Assembly: GCA_023374025.1 (NCBI GenBank)
Contig: SIJG01000079.1
Location: 124,001-188,000, forward strand
Origin: Heterodera schachtii
Lineage: Eukaryota > Nematoda > Chromadorea > Rhabditida > Heteroderidae
Direction of reading: 5' to 3'
DNA length: 64,000 bases
Part shown: piece by piece, positions 2,534 to 62,389 of the stretch
How positions within the stretch are numbered: position 1 is the first letter of the stretch
How the letters are laid out: each line of letters opens with the position of its first letter
Position numbers and translations under genes: made by a program
Notes under the pieces: model-generated
The model's database searches: none
Told to the model about the DNA's origin: nothing
The model's input: the letters and a program-made list of their open reading frames with translations, nothing else

Positions 2534-2623
2534 AAAAAAACTGCTTTTTACCAACAAAAAATGATCAACAATATAGAGCAATTAATTTCGCATGGACAAA
2601 ATTTTTTACGTATAAATTAACAG

Positions 2624-3095: not shown

Positions 3096-3149
3096 AGTAA
3101 CAGTTATTCTACTGAAATGGACCAATTGGGTAAATAATTTCCCTGCTAC

Positions 3150-3154
3150 AAAAC
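3150..3154. repeat. Target-site duplication of LTR element 1, left (aaaac)
   Basis: The same five bases follow the 3' LTR at 8315-8319. A perfect 5-bp duplication is usual for Ty3/Gypsy integration. Confidence 0.85.
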
Positions 3155-7987: not shown

Positions 7988-8314
7988 TGTTCGGGTGGAA
8001 CCCGAGAGACATTTATTTAATTTGATTTATTTCATTTATTATTTATTTGTTGTGTCTGACCATTCACAGTCAGACACATTCACTCATTTCATTTGTTGTT
8101 ATTTGTGGTGTCTGACCTTTCACAGTCAGACACATTCCTTATTGATTGTATTGTGACCATTTGCCCTCCCCTCATTTGTTTCATTCAGTTCCATATTTGT
8201 GTTCACATTTCCAATTGCTCTCCTCGCCGTCCTCCGACCAAATTTATTTGTTATTTAATTTGTCTTCAATAAATTTGTTATTTGTTCGTCCATTCGACAT
8301 TCGGGGACCGAACA
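7988..8314 (+). repeat. 3' LTR of retrotransposon 1
   Basis: Identical by eye to 3155-3481. Followed by the right target duplication aaaac at 8315-8319. Confidence 0.95.
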
Positions 8315-8341
8315 AAAACTTGATGAAAAACCGGAACCGCC

Positions 8342-8702
8342 CAGTTGGGCCGGCACGGTTGGGCCCCAGCATGCTTTTCCACTATAGCTTTTTTATTTGT
8401 TATCCAAATCCAACATTCTTAATATCATTCGAAAGCTTTTAACATGCTCTATTAGCCTTACAAAAAGCGAATAGATTTTCAGCCTAGAAAAAATTTTATT
8501 AAGAAAAAACTTCAAAATTTCGACTTTTTCGCAATCTTCATGTGTAACTTTTTTGGTAAATGTTTAATCGCGAAGCACTAGATTAGGAAAGCTTCTAAAC
8601 ACATTAAGCTTTCGAATGATACCAACAATGTTGGATTTGGTTGACAAAGAAAAAAAGTTTTTGCCAAAAAAGTTCTGGGGCCAAATCGTGCTGGCCCAAC
8701 TG
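8342..8702. mobile_element. Foldback element on scaffold B, word GTTGGGCC
   Basis: The ends are inverted: cagttgggccggcacg at 8342 and cgtgctggcccaactg ending at 8702. Inside, both arms carry scaffold B in inverted orientation (tatcattcgaaagctttt about 8420, and aagctttcgaatgatacc about 8609). The word gttgggcc is iterated near the left end. I found no clean 8-bp target duplication. Confidence 0.6.
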
Positions 8703-8751
8703 AGGTAGACCGTGAAAAACACATTTATTTGGCAAAAACAAAGTTTTTGAG

Positions 8752-8850
8752 AATTTTTGACTTTTCGACCAAATGTTTGAATTTGAATCCTGGACTGTGA
8801 ATTGATCAAAATGGAGGTCGGGTTCACAATCAGAGCCCTCGAAAAGCCTA
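8752..8850 (-). repeat. Module C, reverse copy
   Basis: Contains gacttttcgaccaaatg, gaatcctggactgtg and cacaatcagagccctcg, diverged but collinear with the other copies. Confidence 0.55.
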
Positions 8851-8924
8851 AAATGAGTTTGAGAAATGCTATTGCTTTTGATATCGCTGCTTTTCTTTCG
8901 TCGTTTCAATTTTGCGTGCCGCTG

Positions 8925-9118
8925 CTAGGTAGTGCCATCGTCGCCGTTATTCTCGTTGCTGTTGTTGTTGGTGTTGTACACGTTGGCAAACCGTCGCCGA
9001 CAAATGTTCGGCCCGTTCTCCTCATATTCTGCGCGACTCACAAATTTGGCGGTCAACCGAGGCGAGAATTGAGTGGCAGCAGCATCAACATCAGCAGCAG
9101 ATGATGCAGAAGTCTCGG
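8925..9118 (-). pseudogene. Orphan terminal exon of an unknown gene
   Basis: On the minus strand an acceptor (ttggtttttag, AG at 9120-9119) opens a 194-nt stretch that stops at 8927-8925. After the two leading bases it reads about 63 codons: an alanine-rich part (ETSASSAADVDAAATQ), a basic part (FSPRLTAKFVSRAEYE; NICRRRFANVYN) and an asparagine-rich end (TNNNSNENNGDDGTT). GC content is clearly higher than in the surroundings and codon use looks coding. I do not recognise the protein. No plausible upstream exon is seen on the minus strand up to about 9480, so this may be the remnant of a gene disrupted by transposons, or the last exon of a gene with a long intron. Confidence 0.4.
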
Positions 9119-9479
9119 CTAAAAACCAATAAATTAGAAATTCTGAGAAAAACTAGGTAGAAAATTGTTTTGAATTTTTTGAAGAAAATTCATAGTAAAA
9201 ATATCGAAAAAATGCTAAAAAAATTTTCTATTTTCTTTCTTAAAATTTTCTTATAATTAGGCAGCGAAATTTTTGGGTGTATCCAAAGTAACAATTCTTT
9301 TTTAGTCAAAATTACAAAGAAAAAGAGAATCGACGAGATAGTACTAGGCTTTTTCTCTGCACAGTGGAGTTGACCCATAGTGTATAAAGTATAGAATACT
9401 ATAATTGAGAACTCTTATTTATTATTTATTGAAATTATTGAACAATAAAAAATTGCAAAATTAGTAACTTTTTGCAAAT
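9119..9479. other. Non-coding AT-rich stretch
   Basis: No gene or repeat end recognised. Confidence 0.4.
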
Positions 9480-9640
9480 GGAAATATGGACAAAAACCTG
9501 AAATATGAAAAATATGGAAATAAAAAGGGCATCCTAGAAGCATCAAACCAAGCTAAAAAATACAATACAATTTACTTGGTTTTTAGGCCGAAATAAGTGT
9601 GCAAAAAAAAATATGGAAATCCATACAAATCCGGTCCCTC
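9480..9640. mobile_element. Truncated hAT-type MITE, scaffold A with word ATATGGA
   Basis: Contains the words atatgga and atatggaa several times, then scaffold A (agaagcatcaaaccaagct, about 9536-9555), then gcaaaaaaaaa, the palindrome TATGGAAATCCATA (9612-9625) and an end caaatccggtccct. The right end matches the TIR style of the 28280-28814 element (aaaatccggtcttta). No left terminus is visible, so the copy is truncated. Confidence 0.55.
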
Positions 9641-9798
9641 GAGATTTTGATTCTTTTCAAAAATATTTTGTTGTTTTTTAAGGAATCTTTAAAAATCGGA
9701 AACATTTTTAAATACTTGCTTTGTTTACAGATTTTATCAAAAAGGAATTGGATTTTTGAGTCAAATTAAAAAAAATTTTAATTTTTTCTTTCCACAGC

Positions 9799-9960
9799 TT
9801 TGGACAATATTTTGCCCTGACCCTCATTCTTACCAGTGTATTTTCGTACCCGGTATAGCCGGACCTACCGGGTCGGGTACAGGGTACTGGATTTTCAAAA
9901 AACCGGGTCCGGGTACCGGGCTCGGGTATTGAAAAAATCGGGCGCCCGGTTACCCGACAT
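9799..9960 (+). mobile_element. Fragment of the CCGGGTA-word hAT element (right end)
   Basis: Closely matches 18740-18900 of the outer hAT element: ccctgaccctcattcttac, then accgggtcgggtac and ggattttcaaaaaaccgg. It lacks the terminal ttgcaaccctag, so it is a truncated copy. Confidence 0.7.
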
Positions 9961-11477
9961 GGACAATGAAAAAAGTTATAATCTTTGGCTATTTAAAAGT
10001 GCGAAATCCGAATATGCATTTTATTTTGAATTTCAAAAAACTTTGGGGACGTGAAACCTTTTGAAAATTTTCGTTTTTGGGCCTTGGAAAATGTAGTAAA
10101 ATTTGAAAATTCATAACTAAATTGAAACTAATCTCATTAAAATATGCCTAAGAGTTGATTGGGCGAATATTTTGATAATTTTTTGGTATTTGTTCGAATT
10201 CGGGTTGCCTGTTTTTTTGTGCATAGTGTTTCATCGAAAATGGCCATAAGGACATTTTTAAAGCCGACTCTTCGAGCTGATTGTGAGTCTGAATGCCATG
10301 ATCGGTCATGTTTCAATCCACTCAATCATCATATTTTCTTATACATTTTTGCTTCTCGTAAGCAAATATAAAAATTTTTTCTATTATTTTAACAGAAATT
10401 TAAAAACTTAATTTATGCTTGTGACTTTCAAAATTTTTAATGAAAATTGTAATTTAATTATAATTTAAAAAATATAACAATTTATATTATTTCCTCTGAC
10501 GGAATACCGTCATATTTTTGTGGATTTTCATTTTTCTATGTTTAATAAAACTAACAATCTAATAAATCTTGAAAAAAAAAAGTCGGAATTTTTTTCCAAA
10601 AATTTCAAAAACTTTTTTAATAAGTTACCTATATTTTTTTTGGTTTTGTTCCTACATCTCAAAAATTTTAAAAGTGAACAAAATGGCATTCAGAAAGAAC
10701 AATTTTTGGCCCTTTCCAATTGCATAAATTATCGGTGCGATAAAAAAAGGCCGTTCTCACTCTCACCCTTTTATCATAAATAATTGGTTTTGTACGCAAA
10801 CATCACAGTTCCTTCCTCATTTTCCTATTCACCTTATATTTTCAATTTTGAGATGTACGAGCAAACGCAAAAGTACACTTTTTAAAAAAATTTTAAAATG
10901 CGTTGAATGCCGATTTCGAATCCTACTCCATTAATTTTTTCAACAGATTTTTGCTTCAAAAATTTCCTATTTTTTCAGTTTGTGAGTCATTATTTTTTAT
11001 GTCCGCAGAAATTATGGAGCGCGAAAAAAGTTCAAATGTGCTCAGAAAATGAGATATAGATTCAAAAAGAGTTAAATTTAAAAGATTCGAATTTGTTTGA
11101 AATTTTGATCTATACTTACAGTATGGGTGGGACATAAGTTTATGCCCAAACAGTTTGGCTGAATAAAATGTCGTATAAAATCCTTAAAACGAATAAAATC
11201 GAAAAATTTTCTTTACAAAAATTTAACCCCGTTCCTGAGCTTCCAAAAGAACACAAATTCACTTCCCTTCCTTAGCTCTACGAACTTTTTGTTATTTAGA
11301 AAATTTATGCTAAAATTTGGGTGGTCAAAATTATGCACAAAAAGTTTAAAAAAAAAAAATTTCTCAGAGCTAAGCGATGGGAAAAATCATCTGAAAACCT
11401 GAAAATGGCTTGAAACTTGGAAAATTTCCGAAAAATAAACCCTAGGGTGAATAAATTGATCAAAAACTAAAGAAGTT
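9961..11477. other. AT-rich non-coding stretch
   Basis: Open frames here are short and AT-driven (for example 10520-10783). A weak module C trace lies at 10180-10300. No gene is supported. Confidence 0.5.
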
Positions 11478-11492
11478 ATGAGCGAATTTGTG

Positions 11493-12235
11493 GGGGTCGG
11501 GGTCGTTTTCGCGTGGGCCGTTTTCGCGTGGGGCGACTTTTTGAACTATAACTTTTTTCTTTGTCAACCAAATCAAATAATCTTGGTATCAATCGATAGC
11601 CCTAAGTGTTCTCTATTAGCCTACAAAATTTGGAAAAATTTCATTAAGGTTCAAAAAAGTTATGGTCAGAAGAGTTCAACAAACCAAAATTTCCAACTTT
11701 TTTTNNNNNNNNNNNNNNNNNNNNNNNNNNNNNNNNNNNNNNNNNNNNNNNNNNNNNNNNNNNNNNNNNNNNNNNNNNNNNGCAAAAAAACGAGATAATA
11801 AATAAATAAATGTTATAAAACATTTGTTTTTGTAGCCTCATATATGGACCAACCGAGTTGGATAAGCTTTGCATTAAAAGCCAGGTGCAAACTCAAGAAA
11901 ATAAAAGCAGAAGAATTTTTTTAAATAAAATTATATTAGCTAAAATCAAATTTAAAATAAAATAAAATAAAGATACATAACAAAATTCACAGAATATATA
12001 ATAAAAATTAATAAAAAATATTTAATTTTTAATGCAAATGCCAATTTAATAAATAAATTTAAAAGTTAAAACATCACTTTGTTAAATACGCACAAGGTTT
12101 TTTGAGTTCCTATAGCCATAACTTCTTTGAATCTTAACGAAATTTTTGAAATTTTGCAGACTTAAAGAGAACACTTAAGGTTATCGAAGGATATCAAGAT
12201 ATACATCAAAATTTTGTTGCATAATTAATTTTTGG
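11493..12235. mobile_element. Foldback element on scaffold B, word TTTTCGCGTG, with assembly gap
   Basis: The left arm has two iterations of the word (gtcgttttcgcgtgggccg, then ttttcgcgtgggg) and then scaffold B: tttgtcaaccaaatcaaa, cttggtatcaatcgatag, ccctaagtgttctctatt, ending in gttatggtcaga. The right arm (about 12106-12235) is the inverted scaffold B (ccataacttctttgaatc ... ggttatcgaaggatatca). A 77-base run of N separates them. I cannot place the outer right end. Confidence 0.55.
11705..11781. other. Assembly gap (77 N)
   Basis: Run of N. It lies inside an inverted repeat, a structure that often breaks assemblies. Confidence 1.
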
Positions 12236-15090
12236 TCAAAAATTTCACATTGATATTTTTTAAAAGAAAGCCCTTTATACAGTTTTTTAAATACGAATGC
12301 TCACCAAGCAATGAGAAAATATATTTTTTTAATGGAGAATGATCTAAAAAACGAACTTTTATATACATATAAAATCGAATTAATCGTTCGTTCTCTGGTC
12401 AATACAAAAATGTTTATGTCTTTTTTCAAAATATATTTATTGCTTTAAAATTTAATTGCTTAATTTGAATTAAACATTTTTTTCTGACATTGTTTCTTTG
12501 AATGATTATGCCAATTCTCACACTAAAAATGGCACAAAAAACAATGGAATGGTCAAATTAGTGAACAATAACAAACGTACAGCAACAAAAAAACGCTCAA
12601 TAATATAAAGTGATCACCCTATAAAAGACACAGCTCATAAAAACGTGTTGCGACACTTGCGCCGCTCACTTAATATATTTTAAAATATTTTTACCAATTT
12701 TCAACGAATTTTACTCAAAATTCTGTGCAACAATAAAAAAGCAATTAAAAGAAATGCGAAAAAAAATTAATCACAACGATAGACATTTATTTTTTGTTTT
12801 TGTTAATGCGTACATCAGCAGCAAAAGCAAATTTGATGACAAGGAAAACAAAAATTATAAGCCACATTTATATATACAAATTTTCTGTTTAAAAAAATTT
12901 TTGGATTAGTTAAAATGGTGCAATTGGATTTTGTAGGGTGGCGCAAAAGTCGGTACACCCATAAAAAGACGCAAAAGAAATTTTTTATTTATTTTTATTG
13001 TTAAAACAAGCAAAACATATAAAGTTATCTGAATGATAGCGTGGAATGGAAAAGGTAATCAAATCACATTTATTAACCACTTATAAATCATGTCAAAGTA
13101 AAAGATAAAAGATTGAAAAGGTGTGGCGATTTTAATGGGCATTTCAAAGGGTTTTGGATACGAGAAAGTAAAAAGAAGAAAAAAAAAACTGAAAAAACCA
13201 AATTAAAAAAGTACTTTTATTACACAAAATGAAATTGTACAAAAATAGAATTTAAATGTAATAAACATTGAAAATTTTATTGAATTCAAAATTGAAAAAA
13301 ACCCAAAGAAAGCAGAAATAATTATAGAAAGGAAAATTATTGTTCTATAAAAAAATAATGATATATAATTCATAATTTTTAATTTTATTAAATTTTCAAA
13401 ATAGAAAATATCAAATTTGACTGTATTGCAGTTTACACGACCATAAAAAAATAAATAAAAGTCGACAATTAAATGTGCCATATTTTTTCTCTTTAGAAAT
13501 AATTATGAATAAAAAAATGTTCAAATTTACATTTTCGCACTTTTTAAATTAAATTTGTCAAATTATTCTATGAACTTGTCTTTTTATGATCCTATAAACT
13601 GCAATTGAAGCTAAAATTTATCTTATATTCTTTAATTAATTTTCGGGTTGAAAACCCGAGAATTTTTGGCTTGGAAACCGGGAAAAAACTGGGAATTTCC
13701 CGGTCCCGGTCAAAACTGTCAAAACCAGGACTTCGGTACTCAGCTTTAAAGGTATCACAATGCAGTAAATTTATGCCAAAGAAAAAACAATTTCTTAACC
13801 CAATTTATTAATGCACATTTTGCAGCAGCGTTTTCTGCCGGTGCATTCACTCAATATTTTGACAGTTCCTTTAATTTATTTTTCCTAATTAGCAGCTCAT
13901 CATCCAAATGCCTTTTATTAAATTATATCTTTTATCGGTTCGTTCGATATATTTCCTTTATTTTCTTTTTTTACGTTCATCCGAAACAGCAAATTTCTCG
14001 AACAGAAAATTTCTCAGAAAATCAGCATCTCAACAAAAAAAAATCAGAATTGACCTCTTGAAATCATCAAAATGCTGATAAATCTGCAGTGTTGGGGTGA
14101 CAATGTTTATGAAATTCTTAATTAGTTTCCAAATTTTGCAATTTAGCAACATTTTTACGGTTTCACAAAACTTTATAAATATTGAATTGGTTTTTAATGA
14201 TTAATAAATCGAAATGAACTGTAAAATAAGCATTTAATAAACACCATTAAAGTCAATAGCCTAAAAACAATTCGGAGATTAAATTTTATAAATCAGAGAA
14301 CGCATTTAAAAACCAAATCACATTACTTTTATAATCATATGACAATAATATAAAATACTATCAGATGCTTTGGTATTGCTTTTGTCTTAATAAAATACTA
14401 TTTAATAAATATTGCAAGAAAATTTTTTTAACAATATGACCAAATTACCAAATTTATGATTTAACCTTAAAAAACATAAAACCAGAAAAGGCCTAGCAAC
14501 TTTTTAATTAATTTTAAAATTTATTAGTAAAATGCATTTTTTTAAACATTTAAAAATATTCTTTTTGTAGATTCAAACAGTGCAAGAATTTGAAGTACGA
14601 TTTTATTTAATAATTGAAGCAACAAAAAGAACATTAATTTTCTTTACAAGAAAATAAATTGATTAAAAAATATTAAATTTGAGCTTAAATTAAAATGAAA
14701 TATTCAGGTCATTATATTAAAAATAGCTATAATAATACAGTAAAAATAATAATGAAAATTTATAATGTCTTTTGAAAATATATCTCTTGAAATTTGTATA
14801 AATTGAAATTTAAGAAATGCCATATTAAAATATATAAAAGTAAATTAATGCAAAAAAATGATTTCTTTTATAAATTAATATTGTTAAGAGCGCACAAAAA
14901 CAAAATTATCACTGATCATTAGCAAAATATTAACAAGAGAAAATGGCATTTTGAAAAACAAAAACAAAATTTTGCACATAAATTTTAAATTTAATCATAA
15001 TTGAATTGAAAGTGAAATTTATGAAAAAGAGAAATAAAAAAAAACATAAATTTGTTCTAAAAATATTTATTATTAAATTAATTTATTAAA
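12236..15090. other. A-rich non-coding block
   Basis: Long AT-rich DNA with A favoured over T on this strand and no supported gene. At 13643-13735 a small GC-richer patch carries the words cccgag, ccgggaa and cccggtcccggt, probably a fragment of another word-type element. Confidence 0.5.
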
Positions 15091-15098
15091 GTCTGAAC
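15091..15098. repeat. Target duplication of outer hAT element, left (gtctgaac)
   Basis: The identical eight bases are at 18933-18940, on the other side of the element. An 8-bp duplication is typical of hAT transposition. Confidence 0.85.
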
Positions 15099-15423
15099 TA
15101 GGGTTGCACGGGTACCGGGTATTTGGGAAAAACCGGGCCCGGGTATTACCGGGTATTGAAAAGCCGGGTACCGGGTCGGGTAGCAGTTTTGAAACCGGGT
15201 ACCGGGTCGGGTACCCGGTAAAACCGGGTATTATAAAAATCCAAAAAAAAAATCCATTTTTTAAAAAATTTTTCATGAAAATAAAAGCTTATATTTTTAA
15301 AAAAGCATGAAAAATATAATGTTTACAAATAAACGCTTTATTATTTGCCAAATTTTTTTATTGCTATTTAAACCACTTTTTTGCGGTGCGCTTTTTCTAA
15401 AAACTTTTCGGGGTAGGGGCGGT

Positions 15424-15449
15424 CCGGCGGTGCCGATAGGCGCCGCCGG
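15424..15449 (+). other. GC hairpin module D, copy 1
   Basis: ccggcggtgcc, loop gata, ggcgccgccgg: an 11-bp stem with one G-T pair. Other copies are at 19792, 20894, 21030, 28552, 34316 and 44028. Confidence 0.8.
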
Positions 15450-15634
15450 GAAAAATTTTATTCTTTAAAATTGGCTCAAAAATCACCAAAATTGGGGCAA
15501 TTTTTAGACAAAATCTGTTAAATTTTTTGAATAATTGTCGCAAAAAAAACTTTTTAGTGTAAAAAAATGTTTAAAAGAGTTTGCATTGAGGAGGACTGAT
15601 TGAACCTAAAAAAGAGCGTACAGAATCCAAGAGA

Positions 15635-15642
15635 CTAACCAG
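15635..15642. repeat. Target duplication of inner hAT transposon, left (ctaaccag)
   Basis: Repeated exactly at 18663-18670. It fixes both borders of the transposon at 15643-18662. Confidence 0.92.
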
Positions 15643-15654
15643 TAGAGACCGGAC

Positions 15655-15845
15655 GGGATCGGGATCCCGCGGGATTTCTTCGGGATCCCGCGGGATTAAA
15701 TTCGGGATCCCGACCTCGGGATCCGTCCCGAGCGATTTTTTAAATTCATCGGGATTGATCGGGATCGGGATTTGATCGGGATCCCGAATCGGGATCCCTC
15801 CCGACCATTTTGCCAATCCCGCGGGATCCCGCGGGATTGAAGTCA
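15655..15845. repeat. Left subterminal repeat array of the hAT transposon
   Basis: Dense direct and inverted copies of tcgggatc / gatcccga, including several cccgcggg palindromes. In hAT elements such subterminal repeats are transposase binding sites; here that role is inferred. Confidence 0.8.
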
Positions 15846-16058
15846 CGATAAATTTTTGAAAACTTTTCATTTTCTTATTACAATTGCACATGGACGGTAA
15901 AAAAGAAAACTTTTTTTTTGTTAATTATAAAAAAATTGGCGTTCTGTTACCTTTTACTATGCCCAAAGTTTCCTTATTTTTTTCTCCACCACAAGATATT
16001 TCAACCATTTTTATTTATACATTTTACAAATATAAATCTTTTTCATTAAGCCTTTTAA

Positions 16059-18422
16059 ATGCAATCAATTATTTGGTCCATTGGACTATTCAGCAAAGTT
16101 TCTAAAGATGAAGCTGAGTGTGCCGTTTGCAAAGAAAAGGGGGGCAAAAAATTTGTGTTTAAATTATCGGCCGGCAGCACAAAAGGCTTAATCACACACC
16201 TAAACACCATACATGCAAATAGTAGCTATGCTTCTGATTATGCCAAACAATTTGAACTGAAGAAGGAAGGTGGGACAGGAATTGGCAAAATTAGTACATT
16301 CTTCAAAATATCAACCTCCGGTCCTATATTTTTCGTTTTCCTTATAATTCAATTTTTTCAGGGGATCTGTCACACTTGGACAAGCGTGTTATTAATTTTA
16401 TCGCATGTAACGCTCTTTCATTTGGCATAATTAATAACCCGACTACCCTCATGCTCTTCAACCAAAATAACACACTTTCAGCGCTGAAGGAAGAGTCTTA
16501 TTACAGGAAAAAATGCCTGCCATTGGTTTACAGTGCTGTCAAAAAGAGAGTCTCTGAGGAATTGGAAAAATGTCCTTTCCTGTCTTTTACTTCCGACATT
16601 TGGAGCAATTCTATTGACAGTTTCATGAGGTATGCCACGAAAAATGGATGGCAATGTTAAGAATTGTGGTCCCTAATTTTACTTTTTTAATTTTCTATTC
16701 AAATTCAGTTTTCGTGGGGTTTCGAGGGTGCTGATTATGAATCTGAACTCGAATTTGCCCACTTCCGAACCCCGGACCCGAATTCGAACAAAAAGGAAAA
16801 AATTCTTAAATATATAAGTTAAAACCGGTTAAATTTTCTTTACCATTGCCAAATGGATGGTCAAATCAATTTTTAGTCTGACTGCTCATGGCATCACCCA
16901 TGATTGGAAACGGGTGGATTTTGTTCTTTCTGTCGGACAAATTAAGGGAGAGAAAACTGGCGAACGAATTGCTGAAAGAATACGCCAAATTTTGGTGGAT
17001 TGGAAAATTCCCCAAGAAAAATGTGCAGTTTTTGTCCGGGATGGTGGCTCAAATATGAGAAAAGTAAAAACATTTTAAAAATTGTTTTTTTTTTTACAAA
17101 TTTTTAGGCTTTTTCTGCGATTTACAACCCTGAGACATTTATCGATAGTGATTGTTCTGCACACCTTCTTAATCTTTGTGTAAAAGAAGGATTAAAGGAG
17201 GAGAGAATTAGCGCTCTGCTAACAAAGTGCAAAAAGATTGTGGCACATTTTAAACATTCTAACACCGCAATGGGGCAATTGCGCGAGGTCCAACTGGAAG
17301 AGGACGCACCAACTCATACACTGCTCCAAGTTTCGAAATGTTTAAAATATTAATTTAAAAAAAAACCAAGGAAATTCCCGTTCGATGGAACTCTGCTTTT
17401 TTTATGGTAAAACGGCTATGTGAACAAAAAAACGCATTAAATGTTTTTGCATATCAAAAAGGTTAATCTAATTATATTATGTACATTAAAAATATGATTC
17501 AGGCGTGCCAAATTTAACTTTTGCCGATGACGAATGGAATGTTTTAGAAGAATTGTCGTCTTTATTAGAAGGATTAAATGAACTTTCTGGGATTTTTTGC
17601 CGCAGAGAATCTTCCATTTCAATTATTTTCCCGTTTTCAAAAATGACCGTTCGGAATTTGGAACAAAAAATTTTCGTAAAGCATGAAGTGCATGATTGCA
17701 AGCGGACCATAGTCAATTCATTAAAGCAGCGTTTTGGCCGCTTTGGAAATGAAAAGTGCGGTCATCTCATTAAAAATTATTTTAATGTTTTTCCATTCAG
17801 AATTTATCTTCTTGCTCAATTTTTGGACCCACGATTTAAATCATTTTTTATCGAATACCCAGACGAATTTCGGTACTAATTTTTAGGATAGTTTTAATTT
17901 AAATAGTCTTATTTAGTCGTGATGTAATTGAATGGCTTGGAGAATCGCCATCAAATGACGACCAATTGGTTGAAGAGCAATTAGTTCCAATCAGGTCGCC
18001 CTCACCGAAAAAAACCAAATGTGGATTATTTGATTTTTTTTCATCAACTTTGGACCAGGATTCGCCTCAAACCATATCAAATGGTTCGGCATAATTTAAA
18101 ATTTATTTTTGAAAAATAAATTTCAGGAGAAAACGCACAAATGGACTTAAAAACTGAAATTTTTGAGTATAATGCATTGGCGCGGCAGATTTTAGAAAGT
18201 GATCCACTGGAATTTTGGAAAGAAAATTCCAAAAAATTTGCCCAGTTGTCAAAGCATGCGAGACGGTTTTTATCAGCACCGGCCACAAGTGTTGCGTCGG
18301 AACAACTTTTCTCAACGGCTCGTGATGTTTATGATTATCGTCGTTCTCGTTTGAGAGCGAGAAAAGCGGAAATGCTAATATTTCTCAATAGAGTGCTTCC
18401 TTTGATCAATTACAAATATTAA
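16059..18422 (+). CDS. hAT transposase with BED zinc finger (8 exons, 620 aa)
   Basis: Joining 16059-16320, 16362-16629, 16877-17063, 17108-17329, 17371-17461, 17503-17872, 17917-18083 and 18127-18422 gives 1863 nt, exactly 621 codons with one final stop. All seven introns are GT-AG; six are 41-44 bp. Intron 2 (16630-16876, 247 bp) carries a module C repeat. The protein begins with a BED-type finger (C21, C24, H47, H52). The RNase H-like catalytic domain has the first aspartate in FTSDIWSN (about D166), the second in VFVRDGGSN (about D232), the family CxxH motif in CSAHLLNLC (255-258) and the RW motif in VRWNSAFF. The last 80 residues are the hAT dimerisation domain ([32 protein letters not shown]). 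It would cut and paste the element in the nucleus, making 8-bp duplications. Start choice: first ATG, directly before the finger. Expression is unknown. Confidence 0.9.
16712..16800 (+). repeat. Module C copy inside intron 2 of the hAT transposase
   Basis: Contains gggtgctgattatgaatctg, ccggacccgaattcgaac and aaaaagg. It explains why this intron is 247 bp while the others are 41-44 bp. Confidence 0.7.
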
Positions 18423-18477
18423 CCATGCATTTGGATAAATCTTGGCGCAAATGAAAAAAAAATTGTTTGAAAATACA

Positions 18478-18640
18478 AATCCCGATAATCCCGCGGGATC
18501 CCGAAAAAAAATCTTCGGGATTCATCGGGATCGGGATTCGGTCGGGATCCCGACTCGGGATCCGTCCCGGTCTGTTTTTCAAAATGTTCGGGATTGATCG
18601 GGATCGGGATTCAGTCGGGATCCAGACTCGGGATCCCTCC
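18478..18640. repeat. Right subterminal repeat array of the hAT transposon
   Basis: Same tcgggatc words as the left array, leading to the right TIR at 18651-18662. Confidence 0.8.
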
Positions 18641-18662
18641 GACCCCAGTTGTCCGGTCTCTA

Positions 18663-18670
18663 CTAACCAG
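18663..18670. repeat. Target duplication of inner hAT transposon, right (ctaaccag)
   Basis: Exact match to 15635-15642. Confidence 0.92.
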
Positions 18671-18932
18671 TAAGCCATATGAACAATAAATTAACTCTTT
18701 TCTAGAGTAAATATTAATTAAATTAAAAAATTTTCTTCCAACTTTGATCAACATTTTGACCCTGACCCCCATTCTTACCAGTGTATTTTTGGTACCCGGG
18801 TACCCGGACCTACCGGGTCGGGTACCGGGTATTGGATTTTCAAAAAACCGGGTCCGGGTACCGGGTCCGGGTATTAAAAACCGGGTATCCGGGTCGGGTA
18901 CCCGGTCGGGTACCCGGACCCGTGCAACCCTA

Positions 18933-18940
18933 GTCTGAAC
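18933..18940. repeat. Target duplication of outer hAT element, right (gtctgaac)
   Basis: Exact match to 15091-15098. Confidence 0.85.
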
Positions 18941-20647
18941 CTGTTTCTGCTTCAAAACGGGGAGAAAACACGATTAATCTAAAGAAAAAATAATGAAACC
19001 AAAAAATAAATAAAACACTTAACAAAAGTACTTTTATTAGCGAAAACATAAAAATAATTTAATAAAAACGAAATGACTTAAAAAATATTCATAATTAATC
19101 ATTTTGGAGAATGGTATTAATTTCTTGAATTAATGTTTGTTTATATAACCATTAAAATGCATAAGTAAATAAAGAAAGTAAGTCATAAAATTGAATTTAT
19201 TAAAAAAACAAAAACAAAAAATATATACATAAAATCATTCAAAAATTCCATTTAAAAGTAAATAAGTGTTAGCACATGACGGGGGTCGGGTCGGGGGATG
19301 ATAAATTGTCGGCGGTCGAGGACCCCGATCGGGTGAAAAAACTATTTTTCCTTTTCTTTTAAATGCTCGTAAATGCACCCAAATGCGCTACAAAAAAAAG
19401 AGAAGCTGTTCCCCTTGTAACACCCACCTGTAATAGCAGTAACGGTAACCACTAAATCCTCCAATCTTGAAGCCACACTATTAATAAAAGCCGATAAAAA
19501 AAAGTTATAGGGAAATAGGCCATAGAATATAATGCACAAACAACCTCTTCCTTTAAGCAGTCTGTTCCTTGTCCGCCAGGGTAACCTGAGTGATTCCGCT
19601 AGTTGCCTTTTTGCCTCTAAACGCACAAAAAAAAAAAGATTTTTCTTTTACCACCCTTTGCTTAAGCAAATGAATGCTTTGGTCTGGTTATAAGTAATGC
19701 TTCCTTAGCTGCCTGCTCAAATAGGAGCTGATGAATTAAAAGAGAATCATTTGTTGGCGCCAGTAAAAGTGCGTCCGATTTGGCATTTTATCCGGCGGTG
19801 CCTATAGGCGCCGCCGGAAAGTTTTTCGGAATTTTTAATTACTTTTATTAAGAAAAAAATTGTTCAAAATTCAAAAATGTTCACCTTTCCCCCATTCTTG
19901 TGAAATTAACATTTTTTTTCTTTTTTTATTGAATAGAAATATCTAAATAGAAATATTCTTCAAGTTTGATAAGTTTAAATAAACTATTCAGTTATTCTAT
20001 AAAAAATAATGAAAATGGAAATTTTAATACCTTTTTAAAAGAATCTTTTGAATTTGAATGAATTGAAGTTTAAGAAATACTAAATTAAAATAATTAAAAA
20101 GTAAAATAAACAAAAGTAAATTTTTTTATCAATTGTAATAATTTAAAAATATTCATAAAGCAATTAATTAATGGCATCTTGAAAGTTGAGTCAAAAAGAA
20201 CCCATAGGGAAGAAAAAATAATTTAAAAAATAACAAAAGAAAAGATAAATATATAATTAACCTAATTACAGGCAAAATAAATAAATAATAAATATAATTT
20301 AAAAAAGAATAATTATAAATTAATTGACAGCTAAGATATCTTAATGAAGCGAATAAAATAAAAATTTAAAGAAAATTGTAAAAAAAAAAATTATTATTGA
20401 GAGCACAAAATTATTTTAACAAAAATGAAATGATTTAAAGATATTCATTATCGCGATCAAATTTACGTACATTTTTTTTTACACCGACAAGAGTAATTTA
20501 AAGAAAGAAAAATAACGCAAATAAAACAGAAACAAATATAATTTATATTATATATTTATTAAAGCTATAATCTCATAAAAAAACGAGATAATAAATAAAT
20601 ATAAAACCAAAGATAAATTATAAATTAATTGAGCCTCGGTTATAAAC
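18941..20647. other. A-rich non-coding block with isolated GC patches
   Basis: No gene supported. A GC patch at 19277-19335 (gggggtcgggtcgggggatg ... gaccccgatcggg) looks like a word-type fragment. Hairpin module D with loop tata lies at 19792-19817. Confidence 0.5.
19792..19817 (+). other. GC hairpin module D, copy 2 (loop TATA)
   Basis: ccggcggtgcc, tata, ggcgccgccgg. Arms as in copy 1; the loop has G changed to T. Confidence 0.75.
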
Positions 20648-21160
20648 TAGTGCTTCGATCGAAAATTTTTCGAAATCAGAACATCGGGCTCAAAAATTCA
20701 GTTTTTGGGGTCGAAAATCAGAACATTTTGCGAAATTGCTTCAAATAATTTTTTAATCTCGCATTATCGTTTTTAACAAATTTGCGGAGAGATTTAGCAA
20801 ATCATATTTTTCAGTGTATCGAGATTAAAATTTAAACAATTTTTTGCTATGCCTTTTTCTTAAAATCTTTTGGGGAACTAGGGGGAGGTGGGTCCGGCGG
20901 TGCCGGTAGGCTCATCCGGGAAATTTTTTGAAAATTTGAGTGCAATTTGTTAACAGATTTTGTCGAAAAATTGTCCAAATTTTAAAATTTTTGGGCTATT
21001 TTTTAAGAAAACAAAGGATTATAGTGTCTGCGGTGCTGATAGGCGCCGCCAGAATTTTTTTTTAAATTTTGGCTAGCTTTCTCAGATTTTTGTCTAAAAA
21101 TTTGTGCCTCTACCCTCAAATCAGAGCATTTCTGATAAATTAGAACAACTCGAAGCCCTG
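20648..21160. mobile_element. hAT-type MITE with ATCAG words and two hairpin modules
   Basis: Related end to end to the well-bounded MITE at 43777-44262: both start with a cgatcgaa/tgatcgaa phrase, then aaatcagaacatcgggct, ttttggggtcgaaaatcag and cagaacattttgcgaaa, and end with gataaattagaaca. The terminal repeats are diverged (tagtgcttcga / tcgaagccctg) and the flanking 8-mers match at only 5 of 8 positions (ttataaac / attcaaac), so this is an older copy. Module D occurs at 20894-20919 (right arm decayed) and 21030-21054. Confidence 0.65.
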
Positions 21161-24100
21161 ATTCAAACTTGAAGTGCCGTTCCAGAGTCTCGACTCGGGA
21201 AAAATCTCGGGTTTTTGCTTCTTATTTCTCAAAACTCGGAACTTGATTTTTTTACATCATTTTAATGTGTTTTTAATATCAATTTTTAAATGGATTTGGT
21301 CAAGAAAATTAATTAACATAATAATTACATTAAAATTAGAACCGATGAAAGATTTACGAAACTTGGTCAGTTTATCAAATTCGATGTGCTTGACAAATAA
21401 AGTTCAGCGCAAAATGAGTAGGAAATTCGAAAGTTCACTTTAGCGGAACAAAAGGCTCTTTTTTTACCATGGATAAAATCCAAAAATACTCCTGCACACA
21501 GCGACTCAAAAAATAAATAAAAATGGAAATTAATAATCAAATTAAAAATGTTATTTCCTAAATTAATAATTTGGAGTGTACAAAAACATATCACGGAACA
21601 ATTGGCTAAATATTAACAAGTTTCCCTCACTTTTCCCCAAATGCTTTTCATTTCATTTTTAATCTCCATAATTATTTATTTAGAAAATTGTAAATTTCAA
21701 TTAACATTTTAAAAGTATAAAATTCATTAAATTTATGCCAAAAAAACACAATTTTATTGACCTCATTTATCTTTTATTATGGTAAAATGTGAGTAAAATT
21801 AAAAATTAAATAATCATATAGTTTAAAATTATGAATTTGAATTTTTAAAGAAAAACTGTACTCCATCAGTTACAACTTACTGTATTCCATATGAACATAA
21901 TTTGAGGAAAAATTCTTTAATGATTAAATTATTTTATTAATTATTCGTATATTATGTAATAGTAATAGTGATATTTGAAGGAAAAAAGAAACGGTTAAAT
22001 GAGAGGAGACAATCTTAAACAGTAGCAATATTATTAATCAAATTATAAAATCATAAAACATTCACCAAGATTTATTCAAAAGTTATGTTGGATAAAGTCA
22101 AGAATTTTTTTTATATTCAATTTTTGATGAAAGATATTAAATGGGGAATGATCTTAAAAACAACAACTTTTGTAAATTTGAATTGATCATTCTCTAAGTA
22201 AAAGCAAACTGTTACACAAAATATTTTGAATAAATACTTATTTAATAAACCAAAAAATATTTAAGCAGTGACAAATTAATCAACAAAAAATGAAAAGCTG
22301 AATGAATTTAATTTTTATTAAAAAAAGTCAAGAAAGAAAAACTTTTATTATTCTTAGGCAAAAAGTGATTTCAACGCACTTTTTTATATAAAATTCCGGT
22401 AATTATTCACAAAAAAACCTGCTGAAGAATTGGAAATGAAATGACACAAAAAAAAGAAACAACGGAATGAATGATCAGATTAATAGACAATTAACGAAGA
22501 TACAGCAAGAAAAAAGGCATAAATAAAGTTACAAATAATGACAACAAAAACACAAATAGTGAAGTTAAAGAAAACCTAAATTATAAAATGATGAATAAAA
22601 TATTATGAAATTATATATAATAACTTATGGAAATGTAATAAATTTGATATTTATTAATAAAAAATAAATAAATATTTATAATTATGGTCTTCAAGAAAAA
22701 AAGGAAGGGGAAAAAGAAATCAGTGCGCATGAGTTATTAAAGATAAAAAAAAATAAAGCAAAATAAACAATAGTAATTTTTTTTACATAATAAAGCATCC
22801 GTTTATTTAAAAAGAACCCTAAATTTTGAATATCAATTAGTAATTAATCTTTTAATGTGTTTTATAAGAATTATAAATTTATTTAATGGAATGTGATATG
22901 TATATGAAAGAATAAAACCAAATTTCCATTTAATCTTCAAAAAGCCATAAAATCAGAAAATGGCGAACACTTTTTAAATTATATTTTATACTAAAAGTGA
23001 AATTGAAAAAAACATTAATTTTCTTCACGAGAATACCAACAAGATACACAACTCTTACAAAGAAGCAAAGAAAATTTTATTTTATTTTTTTAATTGTTAA
23101 AACACTGCAAAAAAATCAAAATTTATCTGACCAATTAAGTGGTCAGGAATGATTTTTCTCAAGCAAAATATTTTTAAATCCATCTAAAAAAAGCTTTTTT
23201 TTATTTGATCATTAAAAAATTTTTATAAATAAACAATTAATATTATAAAAATACTAAGCTTTAGCTAAAAATAAATTTCTTACACAAATTTTTCAGTATA
23301 AATATAAATTAAATCAAAGTAAAGATAAAGAATTTGAAAATGAAAAATGGAATAGCAAGGAAAAGTATTAAACAAAAAATAAATTTATTTTTATCAAAAG
23401 ATTTAGAAATAATGAAAGTAACAAAAAAATATATATATAATTTTATTAAAAATTGTAAAAACTGAAAACATAAAACCAATTATATAAATATTTTTGAATT
23501 TTAAATTTATGCATTTAAATTTGTTATTATTAAGACAAAAATATTAATTATTATTAAGACAAAAATATTCAATGTTTAAAAAAAATAAATTTATTGACAT
23601 AATTTATTTATTATTATGGTAAAATGTGCGTAAATTTAAAAATTAAATAAATCATTTTATTCAAGATTATAAATTTGCATTTTAAAAGAAAACAGTATTC
23701 TATCCGTTACAGGTTACAGTATGCCATAGAACCAATTTAATTTAGAGGAAATTCAAATTAATGGCTGTTAAATAAGAGAAGACAATTTTAAGCAGCAGCA
23801 ATATTATTAATCAAGTTTTAAAAACAATAAAAAATCCACAAAATTTATTCAAAAGTATATTTTTATGTTAAAAAGGAGTATGATTTAAATAAGGAATTTT
23901 TATATATTCATTAGAATTAATCGTCAGTCCATTCTCTGACCAATACAAAAAATATTTGTTCATCCATTTCAAAATATATATTTTTTAAATTGAAGAAAAT
24001 CGAAAACAATTTATAATTAATTAAAAACTGAAGCCTTAAACAGTTAATTTTTTGTTAGGCTTACAATGCTCCGAACTTACATTTTGATAAAAAAAATTTC

Positions 24101-27100
24101 CCGTAATTATTCAGATAAAACCACGGCATTGACAAAATCATATGAATTTGAAATGGAAAATGTTTTAATAATATATTGTAAAAATTTGCATTTATGATCT
24201 AAAAATAATTGCTTCAATTTGAATTATTTATTTTTATCTGATATTATTCCTTTGAGTGATTGTGCCGATTCAAACACTGAAAAATGGCACAAAAAATAAG
24301 ACACAACGGAATGAATTTAGTGAAAAATTTTAAAGATTTACAAGAAATTATTAAGTAATCGAATCTTTTCAAAATCATTGTAATGAAAAGAGCAATAAAA
24401 AATAATTAAAGTTTTTAAAATAAATATCTTGAAATTTGAGTTAAAAAAGAAGACAGCACATTAAAACAAAATGAGAAGAATTTTTTTAAAACAGAATTGT
24501 ATTTCATAATTCAAATTTTAAATAAAATAAATAAATAATATATAAAATATTATTCATACATTAAAAAAGAATAAAAATTTATTAAAAATTATATTCATAA
24601 ATTTTTAATTGGAGAATTAAATTTAATTTGTAATGTAATAATTAATTATAGAAAGCAAATATTATTTAAATTAAAAAAAAAATAAATTTACATAAATTGG
24701 TGAAATTATCATTTTATCATTTTATTGTTTTAATAAGATATAATTTATTTTATAAATTTTAATTATCTTTAAAAAACGAGAAAAAATGAAATTTGACACA
24801 ACGGAATGAATGGTTAAATAAGTAAACAAATGAACGAATGCATATAATTTTTGTATTTTAATCAAATTTCTTGCAATATTTTTTTAAACGGAAAATAATG
24901 TATTAAAAAACATTTAGTAATTAATTCGATGAACTTAATTATTCATTCTTCGTCCAAAAATCATTTTTTCCAATATACTTAATTTTATTTTTTGAGTTTT
25001 ATTTCTTTTTTTGCTCCTTGAAAATTTCCGAAAAACTTCGCCATCAGCAGCGTATTTATGAATTTCATTAATTATTGTTTAAAATGCAACTTAATTGCTA
25101 AACAAACAATCACTGCTCATAAAATTTTTAAATTTTTGTATATTTTTTCCCGAATTTTATATAATTGGAAATTCAAATAAAACTAAGAAAGAAATCACAA
25201 AAACCAAAGATTGAACTTTAAAAATAATCTGAATATCGCCAGCAATTTTACAAATATCAGAAGCCGAATTCCTAAAAAGGATATTTACTCGGAGGGAAAA
25301 AATTCAACAACAAAAAAATTCACTATTTCAAAACTGAGAATTCCTTGACCAAAGACTTACATAAAATTAGATGAGCATATTATAAGGAATTTTATTAATT
25401 GTTTTTAATGACTAAAAATTGAAATAAACTGTAAAAGTATTTATTTGTTGAATCGAATTTTCATTCGTTGTCCAAAAACCATTTTTCCATTTTACTTTTT
25501 TTTTATTTTAATTTTTTTTTTTCGTTTTTGCTTCTTTGAAATAAATTTTTCGCCATCAGCAGCATATTTATGAATTTCAACTAATTATTGTTTAAAATGC
25601 AACCCAAATTGCAAAACAAACAATCACTGCTCATGAATTCTTTATATAATTGGAAATTCAAATAAAACTAAGAAACATCATAAAAAGTACATGCAAGTAA
25701 GTCAAAGATTTGAACTTTAAACATTAATCTCAGAAGCCGAATTCCGTTGCAAACAAATTTTAAAATTCCTCAAACAATTGATAAGGGTATATAAAATTAT
25801 ATCAGCAGAGCTTTACTTGAGTTTTAATAATCACCCGTAAAAAAGGATATTTACGCGGACGGAAAAATTTCAAAAAAAAATTCACTATTTCCAATACTGA
25901 GAATTTCTTCACCAAAGACTTACAAAAATTAATGAACATATTAATAAATAATTGAATATTTTGAAAGCCATTTTTATAAAAGAAAAAAATATCGAAAGAG
26001 AAATGTTCAGATGAAAAATAAAGTTAATTCATTTAATTAAAAAAAAGAATAATATTTTTCCATTTTAATAAAGAAATTGAATTTACAGGGTAATGACCAT
26101 GTTCAGTCAATGAAAATTAACAAATAATATTTAAAGTCATGCCAAAGACTCAGGACTCTTGGGAATATAATTCTATAATTAAAGTCAATATCTCAAAACA
26201 ATTCGAAGATTAAATTTTATAAACCAGAGAAGGCATTTTAAAATTTGATTTAAAATTGCCTTTTTCGCGTCATCTCATCATTTAATCTATAAAAAGCGCA
26301 ACAACATTATGTGCCATATTAAAAAAAATAATAAATTACAAATTTTTTTATTATATTTATGCAATTGAAATTTTTATAATTTTTTTTTAATATCATTCAA
26401 ATTCAGCATATGAATATTGAAGAAACAATTCAATAAAAAAAAAGAATTTAAAAATGAAATTCCACAAAATTGCCCAATCGAATTTTAAAACATTTGTCAT
26501 AAATTGACGAAAAATTAAATCCAAATATATAATCCAATTTTTTTAATTTGTCATTTTAGCAAAGCAAAACAAATCAGATAAATTTCTTTTGAATTAAACA
26601 ACTAAACATTAATTATCTCTTAGAGCATTCATTATTATTCATTATTTATCTGAACAACAAAAATTTCATTTTTTTAGTAATTTGAAAACAAAACACGAAA
26701 TAAAATAAAATATATTAGTCTAAAAAGTATTTTATAGCAAACGAAAGATATAAACATAAAATAATTCATAATTCATTAATTGAGTCGCAGACGCCAACAA
26801 GACAAAAAGAATGAAAGCGAGAGAAAATGAAAATACAGTGGTATGGGTTGAAAGAATTTCGACTGCCCAAAAAATAGTAATTTTCCTTAGAATTCTCTCG
26901 TTTTCGGGATACTCGATATTCGACCTTTAAATTCTCCAAAAAAATATATGAGCATAGCCAATAAATTAATTGAAGAAAAAATAAACAATATGATCATATT
27001 TTCATTATCTTCAAAAAAATAAAACGAGAAAAGGCCAAACATTTTTAAGTTATATTTTTAAATTTATTAAATTCGTCCTATTTTTAATAATTGAAGCAAC

Positions 27101-27943
27101 AAAAAGAACATTACAAAAATACTAATCAAACTGAAATTTTTTTATTATTTTCTAAATTAATAATTTGAAGAGTGTAAAAACTGAAAATTGGCAAAATATT
27201 AACAAGAGAAAATGGCATTTTGAAAAAACAAACAATTGAATTTATCATAATAATTAAATTGAAATTGAAATTATGAAAAATATTTGCATTATTCTAAAAA
27301 TATTTATTAAACAAATTAATTTATTAAAAGCATCCATCATTTCGTAAATAAATCCGGATTCGCAGACAAGATTAATTTAAAGAAAGAATAATGAAGCAAA
27401 AAAATAAAAACATATTACAAAGATTAATCACATCAAATTATTATTAGCGAAAACATAAAATAAAAAATATTCATAATTTAATCATTTTAGAGATGGAGTT
27501 ACATTATTTCTGAATGTGTTGGTTGTTTATTACCATCGCAATAAATGAGTAAATGAAGAAGAAAAAAAGCATAAATTTGAATTTAAGAAAATAATAAAAA
27601 TATTTGAGATGAAATTACACTATTCAGAATAAAATTTGCGATTTAAAATTTAGTAATAAAAACCCATTAATCAAAATGTTCAAATATTGAATTGTTAAGG
27701 AATTTTCCAAAAAAGGCCAAAATAGTGTTGCAAATAGTGACAAAATAATTCAAAAAAAATATGTTAATCCATACAATTTCGAGCCCTAGTAATAAAGCGA
27801 GTTATGGCTGATTAAAATATGGAAATTCATTTCGATTTCATAGTCTATTCCATTTTCGGGGTGCTAAAAAATGTTACTTTAAATTGTTAGCTATGTGCTA
27901 ATTTTAAAAAATTCTTAAGCTTAAAATGAATTTTTCTCTCTGA
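21161..27943. other. A-rich non-coding block with diverged duplications
   Basis: No gene supported. Internal duplications are visible: 21750-21920 resembles 23590-23760 (ttattatggtaaaatgtg; ccat(a)gaac), and 24990-25380 resembles 25470-25945 (cgccatcagcagc; aaacaaacaatcactgctca; aaggatatttac). At 27710-27788 a short fragment with aaatagtg words ends in cgagccctag, like an element end. Confidence 0.6.
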
Positions 27944-28040
27944 GACGAAGTTGGCCCCTTATACACTAAGACGGAGTTGGCCAGACGGAGTTGGCAAGAC
28001 GGAGTTGGCCAGACTGAGTTGGCCCGTTTCGTTCGGCGGG
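27944..28040. repeat. Short word array, (a)gacggagttggc
   Basis: Five near copies of gacggagttggcc (with gacgaagttggcc and gactgagttggcc) in about 80 bp, followed by cgaaatgtcc and gaaagtcc. It resembles the terminal word arrays of the small elements but has no clear boundaries. Confidence 0.5.
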
Positions 28041-28271
28041 GTGGGAAAAGCGCTGACCCACAAAATGTCCAAGCCTCGAAATGTCCAAAAGAGTAAAAAC
28101 CCACGAAAGTCCAAAATTCTAAAAACCTAATAAAACCCGGAAACGAGTCTAATTTAGGGTTTTCGGAGTCGCTGAATACGAATATGACATTTATATTGCC
28201 GCTTGCTTAACCCTGGACACAAATATTGACATAAAAGAGCAAAATAAATTTAAATGCTTATACACTTGATA

Positions 28272-28822
28272 GTCATCAATAGAGACCGGAGTTTTAGGCA
28301 CGAAAATTTCTCAAATAGGCACCTTAAATAGGCACGAAAAATGTGAAAAAAGGCATAAAAAATGAACAAAAACCTCAAAAAAAGCACGAAAAATTGGAAG
28401 GCAGCAAAAAATCTACTTTTAGGCAATAAATTTTTGTCCATTTTTAAAAGACCTTTTTTTTTTGCTCCTCGGGCCAAAATTTTTTTCTCCGATGTTATAT
28501 CCACAATTTCAGTGGTGTTAAAAATTAAAAAACCAAGGTACAAATGGGGGTCCGGCGGTGCCGATAGGCGCCGCCGGAAAATTTTTTTTGAAAATTGTAA
28601 GAATATGATAAGAAAAATTGCGAAAAATTTTAAAATTTTCTATTTTTTTCCAAAAATGCTGAAAAAGGCATGAAAAAGGCACCAAAAGGCAAAAAAGGCA
28701 CCAAAAAGTTCAAGCTAGAAGCTTCAAACCAAGTTAAAAACTCGTTTTTCGTGCATATTAGGCCGTAGCAAGTTTGCAAAAAAAAAAGGCATATGCCTCA
28801 AAATCCGGTCTTTAGTCATCAA
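28272..28822. mobile_element. hAT MITE with AGGCA words, 28280-28814 plus 8-bp TSD gtcatcaa
   Basis: The element 28280-28814 (535 bp) is flanked by perfect gtcatcaa duplications (28272-28279 and 28815-28822). TIRs are TAGAGACCGGA and TCCGGTCTTTA, with one mismatch, and share tagagaccgg with the autonomous transposon at 15643. Both sides carry many aggcac/aggcat words. The centre holds hairpin module D (28552-28577) and the right side scaffold A (ctagaagcttcaaaccaa, about 28713-28730) followed by AGGCATATGCCT (28787-28798). No coding capacity. Confidence 0.88.
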
Positions 28823-39944: not shown

Positions 39945-40138
39945 TAGGGCTGGGAATTATATGGACATAAAATATGGACTTAAATGCCAAAATATGGACA
40001 TAAATCGCGAAATATGGATATAGAAATCCATCCCAGAAGCTTCAAATCAAGCTAAAAATATATTTTTCGTGCGTTTCATGCCTCCAACAGTCCAGGAAAA
40101 AGATGGATTTCCATATAATTCCCAGCCCTAGTAATAAT
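39937..40138. mobile_element. hAT MITE with ATATGGA words, 39945-40130 plus TSD gtaataat
   Basis: The 186-bp element has perfect 21-bp TIRs (tagggctgggaattatatgg and complement) and perfect 8-bp flanking duplications gtaataat (39937-39944 and 40131-40138). The word atatgga is repeated about five times. It carries scaffold A (cagaagcttcaaatcaagct, then tttttcgtgc), the same scaffold as the AGGCA-word MITEs. Confidence 0.92.
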
Positions 40139-61798: not shown

Positions 61799-62389
61799 CT
61801 CATTATTAGAGACCGCAAAAAAGGCACCAAAAATCGCGAAAAAGGCACTATAATAGGCACCAAAAAATTGAAAAAAAAAGGCATGAAAAAAGGCATTAAA
61901 AATTTTTTTCTAAGGTTTTTTAAGGTGCAAAACACGTACAACTTAACTAAAAACTTAATTTTGGTCATTTAAACGATTATTAAATATTTAATATGTTTTT
62001 CGAATAAGGAAAATTTTTAAACCTAAAATTTATTATCAAGAAAAAAAAATGAATTTTGGCGACCAATTTTTGATAAAATTTTTCAATTCTTAGGGATGTA
62101 TTTTCTGAAAATTTTTTAAGTCATTTCTTAAGGGTGTATTTTCCCGATTTTATTTTATTTTTAATGGAAGTTTCCGGCAAAAAAGACCAAAAAAGGCATC
62201 AAAACGGCAAAATGCTAAAAAAGGCATTTAAGGCACGAAAATCCCGAAAAAGGCAAAAAAAAAAGGCATAATAAAAGTCAACGTAGAAGGCTCAAATTAA
62301 GTGGAAAATGTGTTATTTATGCTTAATATATCGAAACTAATGCGCAGAAAAAAAAGTATTTGCCTCAAAATGCGGTCTCTACTCATTAT
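61799..62389. mobile_element. hAT MITE with AGGCA words, 61807-62381 plus TSD ctcattat
   Basis: 575 bp with exact 11-bp TIRs (tagagaccgca and tgcggtctcta) and perfect 8-bp duplications ctcattat at 61799-61806 and 62382-62389. Words aaaggcac / aaaggcat are iterated on both sides. A decayed scaffold A is at about 62290-62360 (gtagaaggctcaaattaagt). Sister of 28280-28814; TIR core shared with the autonomous transposon at 15643. Confidence 0.92.

Follow-up and report, generated by a model that had tools for sequence, protein, structure and literature searches.

Binding of subterminal motifs by the BED-type zinc finger of hAT transposases is already known, and several published accounts describe systems that resemble the DNA considered here. 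Hermes has 8-base-pair (bp) target duplications, a transposase with a hAT dimerisation domain and an N-terminal BED-type finger, an iterated motif near its ends and, close to the terminus, two motifs that form a quasi-palindrome (PMC10368747), and in Herves a subterminal octamer, present in repeats, is sufficient for binding of the transposase (PMC3143072). For four hAT proteins of the CGG-binding protein (CGGBP) kind, the motifs measured on arrays match their own subterminal regions (PMC8097297), and the Mar miniature inverted-repeat transposable elements (MITEs) of Drosophila, which are of hAT origin, are short, non-coding and bounded by terminal repeats (PMC3517528). Structural features of this kind recur in a 64,000-nucleotide stretch of the genome of the nematode Heterodera schachtii (assembly GCA_023374025.1, contig SIJG01000079.1, positions 124,001 to 188,000, forward strand), which we refer to as the window and which holds one coding hAT element and several non-coding elements built on a common block, scaffold A. 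What sets these elements apart is that the short words iterated along related elements differ, apparently through concerted switching, while the scaffold is shared.

The differences from the described systems are as follows. Unlike Hermes, the genome has many families each with a word of its own, and related elements in which the word has changed in place and in concert. Herves, Ac, Tol2 and Tag1 have been studied as single elements, and the available part of the Herves paper describes no series of words on a common scaffold, although the Tag1 motifs TGACCC and AAACCC resemble some of the words found here (PMC3143072). The CGG-binding proteins combine a BED finger with a Hermes-type domain and recognise mostly CGG/CGC motifs and some AT-rich ones, most proteins having their own motif; unlike the present elements they are host genes of many species, measured on arrays, and no word series at transposon ends appears in the part of that paper available (PMC8097297). 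Dense word arrays and word classes set the present elements apart from Mar, judging by the brief description of Mar alone (PMC3517528). Neither a BED-finger recognition code nor word switching of this kind was found in literature titles and abstract openings, subscription journals being mostly outside the scope of that search.

Scaffold A (AGAAGC.TCAAACCAAG...) is a homologous 3' block shared by hAT-type elements that are non-coding and flanked by 8-bp target duplications, and it carries iterated ATATGGA or AGGCA words within the window and ATATGCA words elsewhere in the genome. An earlier note on this DNA had reported one scaffold with two different words, ATATGGA and AGGCA, and two further places that repeat the pattern; the strings it quoted lie where it had placed them, the difference in words is real, and both further places are scaffold-A elements with an 8-bp duplication. 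The 3' part of the first element occupies 9476..9640 (+), with the palindrome TATGGAAATCCATA and the end CAAATCCGGTCCCT(C). This copy retains its 3' end and scaffold and has only three exact ATATGGA words, and it ends on a different base from its relative L042. A search for its 5' terminus in 8001-9700 gave two short pattern matches, neither of them terminus-like. The second element, with AGGCA words, spans 28280..28814 (+), with the palindrome AGGCATATGCCT, the terminal inverted repeat (TIR) TAGAGACCGG...CCGGTCTTTA, its scaffold block at 28717..28790 (+) and the duplication GTCATCAA at 28272-28279 and 28815-28822. A short element with ATATGGA words lies at 39945..40130 (+), with the TIR TAGGGCTGGGAATTATATGGA and the duplication GTAATAAT on both sides, and a diverged one with AGGCA words at 61807..62381 (+), with the duplication CTCATTAT at 61799-61806 and 62382-62389. 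Clear termini and 8-bp duplications are thus present in three of the four. The scaffold core AGAAGCTTCAAACCAAG, allowing three mismatches, matches the window at 9536, 28717 and 40035, where 0.25 matches are expected and none of 100 shuffles reaches three; the fourth, near 62283, has diverged too far for this pattern.

Searches of the whole assembly (178,491,932 bases in 356 contigs) reveal scaffold A to be a large family. The string AGAAGCTTCAAACCAAGCTA, with at most one mismatch, has 261 forward and 261 reverse matches against none for the reversed control, and in local alignments among seven scaffolds that differ in their words or ends, for each of the 21 pairs at most 3 of 500 shuffles reached the score observed. 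A 94-bp end of the AGGCA type gave 702 candidates, of which 40 were scored, and an end of the 9595 type gave 106, of which the 40 scored are 78-100% identical. Among the 30 best matches to one AGGCA query, a 5' end could be recognised in 22 and a duplication matching in at least seven of eight bases in 21, and most of 12 paired ATATGGA/ATATGCA elements, 186 to 680 bp in length, have matching duplications and termini. The elements therefore show the traits of MITEs, being numerous, short and without a transposase, with hAT-like terminal repeats and perfect or near-perfect 8-bp flanking duplications. Word and terminus are combined on scaffold A in four ways or more: AGGCA with CCGGTC, ATATGGA with CCGGTC, ATATGGA or ATATGCA with GCCCTA, and AGGC-type words with GCATCCCTA. 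The 3' flank of locus L087 holds a diverged scaffold-A element of this last kind.

The words of scaffold A fall into classes. In the first 30 loci in contig order among the AGAAGCTTCAAACCAAGCTA matches, 23 are richer in ATATGGA and seven in ATATGCA; each of the latter contains between 4 and 10 forward ATATGCA and no more than one forward ATATGGA, and each of the former at most one ATATGCA. Likewise, left of the scaffold in the 30 AGGCA loci, 244 of the 264 occurrences of AGGNA are AGGCA. Thirteen of the 30 ATATGGA/ATATGCA loci, selected by hand because their ends were usable (eight ATATGGA, five ATATGCA), could be aligned through the arrays, and in this alignment the spacers between words correspond and base 6 of the word differs. 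The majority base differs between the classes in 13 of 15 base-6 columns, with 10 fixed, a difference that is partly definitional because the classes were named from their words, which does not apply to the agreement of nearly all words within each element. It differs in one of the 78 remaining word columns, none fixed, in 116 of 545 columns outside words, seven fixed, and in none of the 61 columns of the scaffold block. A census of the terminal palindrome at this type of end gave 413 matches and none in the control; in the first 100 listed, position 6 is G in both arms of 54, C in 30 and T in three, with unlike arms in 13, eight of which are one single sequence. At least three bases thus occur at this position, mostly as matched pairs. 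Non-coding elements with ATATGTA words, and so with a third base at position 6, adjoin the hAT loci L076 and L107.

A tree was built with the words masked from 23 of the 30 loci, those with less than 60% identity to the consensus (L035, L037, L038, L044, L045, L051 and L055) having been removed. In this tree a single branch, 0.025 changes per column long, separates the six ATATGCA rows from all others; it has support of 83/89, which is not strong, and is present in 85% of 200 bootstrap trees, the root being for drawing only. A branch of that length predicts about 0.3 changes over 13 base-6 sites, and since 13 word sites differ, word replacement appears to have been faster than the divergence of the surrounding sequence; its direction was presumably from ATATGGA to ATATGCA. 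Locus L033 (G000:C1) is a likely intermediate, with ATATGCA words, a position near the base of the clade and one arm of the terminal palindrome still in the ATATGGA form. The discrete classes with few intermediates that the earlier note named as support are thus present, some intermediates existing in L033, in the coding locus L076 and in the 13 palindromes with unlike arms, and the continuous drift between words that it named as a refuting case is not what we see. The concerted replacement that it proposed holds in place for ATATGGA and ATATGCA; for the AGGCA/ATATGGA pair on which it was based, in-place change and exchange of ends are not separated, and because words and termini are combined in four or more ways on scaffold A, this pair may reflect exchange of ends instead.

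Coding hAT elements behave in a similar way. The dimerisation domain PF05699 has 141 matches genome-wide, all above the cut-off (150 of 238 candidates scored), one of them in the window. The most frequent 6-mer exceeds all 40 shuffles in 24 of 31 coding 3' ends, which were chosen non-blind and take in only some of the 30 best dimerisation-domain loci, so that this is not an unbiased rate; seven of 20 flanks (L095, L103, L104, L105, L108, L109 and L110) were excluded for want of an evident G+C word. The words include GTCCCGG, ATCCCGC, ATCCCGA, TCCGTA, CCCGTA, CCCGTG, TCCAGG, TACCGG, ACCCGG, CCCGAA, TCACGG, TCTCGG, ACCGAAA, TCGGAA, CTCTCG and others, those of L094 (CCCCCG) and L107 (GCCGGG) having been assigned by eye, as their top 6-mers do not exceed the shuffles. 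The 3' ends of L103, L104, L105 and L110 have no G+C word and share a ATCTTATTTT-like repeat, which is perhaps an AT-rich word class.

Coding relatives whose coding DNA is 90-97% identical differ both in the word and in the helix of the BED finger (ATCCTGC/ATCCCGC and CCCGTA/CCCGTG). In their coding DNA, loci L063 and L066 share 96.8% of bases over 975 bp, and at the 12 CCCGC sites of L066 the third base in L063 is T in seven and G in three, one site being unchanged and one gapped; their ends differ at 12 of 58 positions in words and at 6 of 129 outside them. Between L083 and L089 identity is 91.3% over 676 bp and 90.6% over 594 bp, and in the aligned 3' ends L083 has CCCGTG, and L073 has TCCGTA, where L089 has CCCGTA. 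The ends of a more distant pair, L061 (TCCCGG) and L081 (TCCAGG), align at 129 of 165 positions. The words of L091 and L092 are TCCCGG and TACCGG, respectively. A likely intermediate is L076 (G000:C50), in which TACGGA is mixed with ACGGG words. In L083 a long inverted-repeat insert (starting AGTATAGTCAACCCCCCGTAAAA...) lies between the stop codon and the word array and splits the 3' end from the gene.

The helices of the fingers, written up to the zinc histidine, which is assumed to correspond to H71 of Hermes, are SNRSLKGLKIH in L063 and SQRSVKGLKTH in L066; SDSSTKSLKMH in L061 and NDSSTKSLIVH in L081; SHGSLKALITH in L089, KNGSLKALITH in L083 and SHGSVKSLVVH in L073; DGSTKGMWRH in L091, DGSTMGMWKH in L092 and DGSTRSMWKH in L096; and TKSTKNMIRH in L097, DGTTGGMLRH in L099, MGNTTGMDKH in L100 and QGNTSNAINH in L101. 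Association between helix residues and word bases was assessed in 15 of the 24 families with a finger and a word, omitting near-duplicates (L062, L076, L080, L093, L098, L102, C59 and C22) and L094, over 45 residue/base combinations with family-wise correction. With kinship uncontrolled, residue 67 is associated with word base -4 (p 0.003), and residues 65 and 62 with base +1 (p 0.020 and 0.035, respectively). Helix and word distances in the same 15 families are correlated (r 0.48), none of 4000 permutations being as high.

By the precedents of Hermes, Herves and the CGG-binding proteins, the iterated subterminal words may be read as sites for hAT fingers. Taking the in-place changes and the residue associations together with these known systems, the best reading in our view, and a likely one, is that the words are subterminal BED-finger sites of hAT transposases which co-evolve with the finger and are replaced when the specificity of a lineage changes. 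Each hAT family of the genome iterates one word near its ends, and non-coding relatives bear the same kind of array; once the finger of a lineage took on a new specificity, elements mobilised by it would have their words replaced at nearly every site. Replacement might proceed stepwise under selection for transposition, perhaps aided by template copying inside the element, while scaffold and spacers stay. More tentatively, and with confidence a little short of evenly balanced, the genome could preserve a readable BED-finger recognition code, in which dozens of hAT families live in mutually separate word systems, residue 67 sets base -4, residues 62 and 65 set base +1 and other positions set the rest, and each switch leaves a near-identical pair differing only in helix and word. 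If so, it would amount to transposon speciation by lock-and-key change.

Joint change of specificity by a transposase and its many scattered sites is a puzzle, since each lone change of a site should hurt, and here the states before and after a switch sit in one genome on alignable backbones, together with some intermediates (L033 and L076). Should the words be finger sites, the families would amount to a natural catalogue that pairs BED residues with DNA words, of use for hAT-derived host proteins, and would explain how non-coding elements stay mobile or get left behind.

Several observations weigh against co-evolution of finger and word. No transposase for ATATGGA, ATATGCA or AGGCA was found genome-wide among the hAT loci and flanks compared, so that the proposal in the earlier note that the words are sites of diverging BED-finger transposases gains from coding hATs, in which words change with helix residues, and lacks a scaffold-A transposase; the matching of word classes to transposases that it called for succeeded for many families and for none of these three words. 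Comparison of hAT open frames from 30 loci with 60 scaffold loci and the window revealed no attached transposase, and 140 scaffold-type places are all more than 9 kb from each of the 141 hAT and 117 BED matches. In further lists of 40 and 100 places, five are within 8 kb of such matches, all more than 3 kb away, and by coordinates no place in the three lists has a convincing transposase neighbour. One ATATGCA palindrome (C44:866085) is 184 bp from a hAT match, its orientation suggesting a separate element. The AGGCA tip TAGAGACCGG equals the tip of the window hAT, but the word of the latter differs. Several class-I fingers fall below the Pfam zf-BED cut-off or are missed, even if they align with each other, and the finger of L066 is truncated by a deletion right after the zinc histidine and may not have selected the word of that locus. 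The association itself covers 15 of 24 families, with words and frame set after seeing the data and kinship uncorrected. In the available account of Hermes all base-specific contacts come from N67, R70, S66 and Q64 and the backbone of R63 and T65 (PMC10368747); residues 66 and 70 are non-significant here (family-wise p 0.89 and 0.97), and residue 62, which is associated here, is absent from those contacts. The top word of seven of the 31 coding ends does not exceed all shuffles, and the ATATGCA clade has support of only 83/89, from a bootstrap that had not settled.

Homogenisation at the DNA level with the protein unchanged, in which words and terminal repeats are corrected within an element by template switching between inverted copies or by abortive repair after excision, would account for a property of the ends. 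In the 12 paired elements the inner bases of the terminal repeats vary among copies and are identical within a copy in eight; over the 11 with five-base stretches, 52 of 55 bases match within a copy, against a permuted mean of 29.0 and a maximum of 42 in 2000 permutations, which left kinship uncontrolled and with L033 paired without matching duplications. Genome-wide, the tip pattern TAGGGNNNNNAATTATATG occurs 1508 times, 765 of them forward and 743 reverse. Ends that are variable yet complementary point to copying from one end of an element to the other in place of protein recognition, and such copying may help to spread new words. Both palindrome arms have the same base 6 in 87 of the first 100 listed copies, which also fits homogenisation. 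As the whole cause, however, homogenisation seems unlikely, because the unchanged spacers would confine copying tracts to a few bases, most words are direct repeats, and the association of finger residues with words is left unexplained; it may be the means and not the cause.

Exchange of ends by recombination, with different hAT families swapping termini and word arrays around a kept scaffold, fits the four or more combinations of word and terminus and the unlike lengths of the AGGCA and ATATGGA palindromes (12 and 14, respectively), but between ATATGGA and ATATGCA elements, as in the coding pairs, individual words differ where flanks and spacers align, which block exchange would not produce, and we regard it as quite improbable as a general explanation. 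The change of ATCCCGC to ATCCTGC is a C-to-T change in a CpG and could recall methylation-driven decay; at the 12 L063/L066 sites, however, three changed to G and none at the opposite-strand C, which decay would also alter, and ATATGGA/ATATGCA and TCCCGG/TCCAGG are transversions, so this very remote explanation was rejected. The region is AT-rich, and chance likeness of such DNA was the other refuting case named earlier; it is contradicted by all 21 scaffold comparisons, each beating at least 497 of 500 shuffles, and by hundreds of genomic copies against none in the control, and its probability is negligible.

Locus L072, with 26 ATATGCA, was considered as a word array and rejected, its copies belonging to a 52-bp satellite that contains ATATGCA, lies directly after a hAT end (1947-3246) and is unrelated to the word arrays. 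The genome has 61 zf-BED matches, of which 17 lie no more than 6 kb from a hAT match. The coding hAT element of the window occupies 15643..18662 (+), with the TIR TAGAGACCGG...CCGGTCTCTA, the word ATCCCGA and, as 8-bp target duplication, CTAACCAG on both sides. Its open frame with a BED-type finger lies at 16059..16430 (+), the finger scoring 19.8 bits against Pfam zf-BED, just below the cut-off of 20.6, and its C-terminal dimerisation domain (PF05699) at 18192..18392 (+; E 1.3e-16). Arrays of ATCCCG/CGGGAT, without assigned strand, are found at the 5' end (15654..15832, 20 copies) and the 3' end (18479..18629, 15 copies). The nearest named relatives of the transposase, among 27 matches, include those from Ditylenchus destructor (41% identity, 100% covered), Meloidogyne and Heterodera trifolii. 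Clusters of CCCGG words of the GTACCCGG type at 9849-9945, 15115-15224 and 18795-18913, two of which flank this element, are probably the ends of another hAT family.

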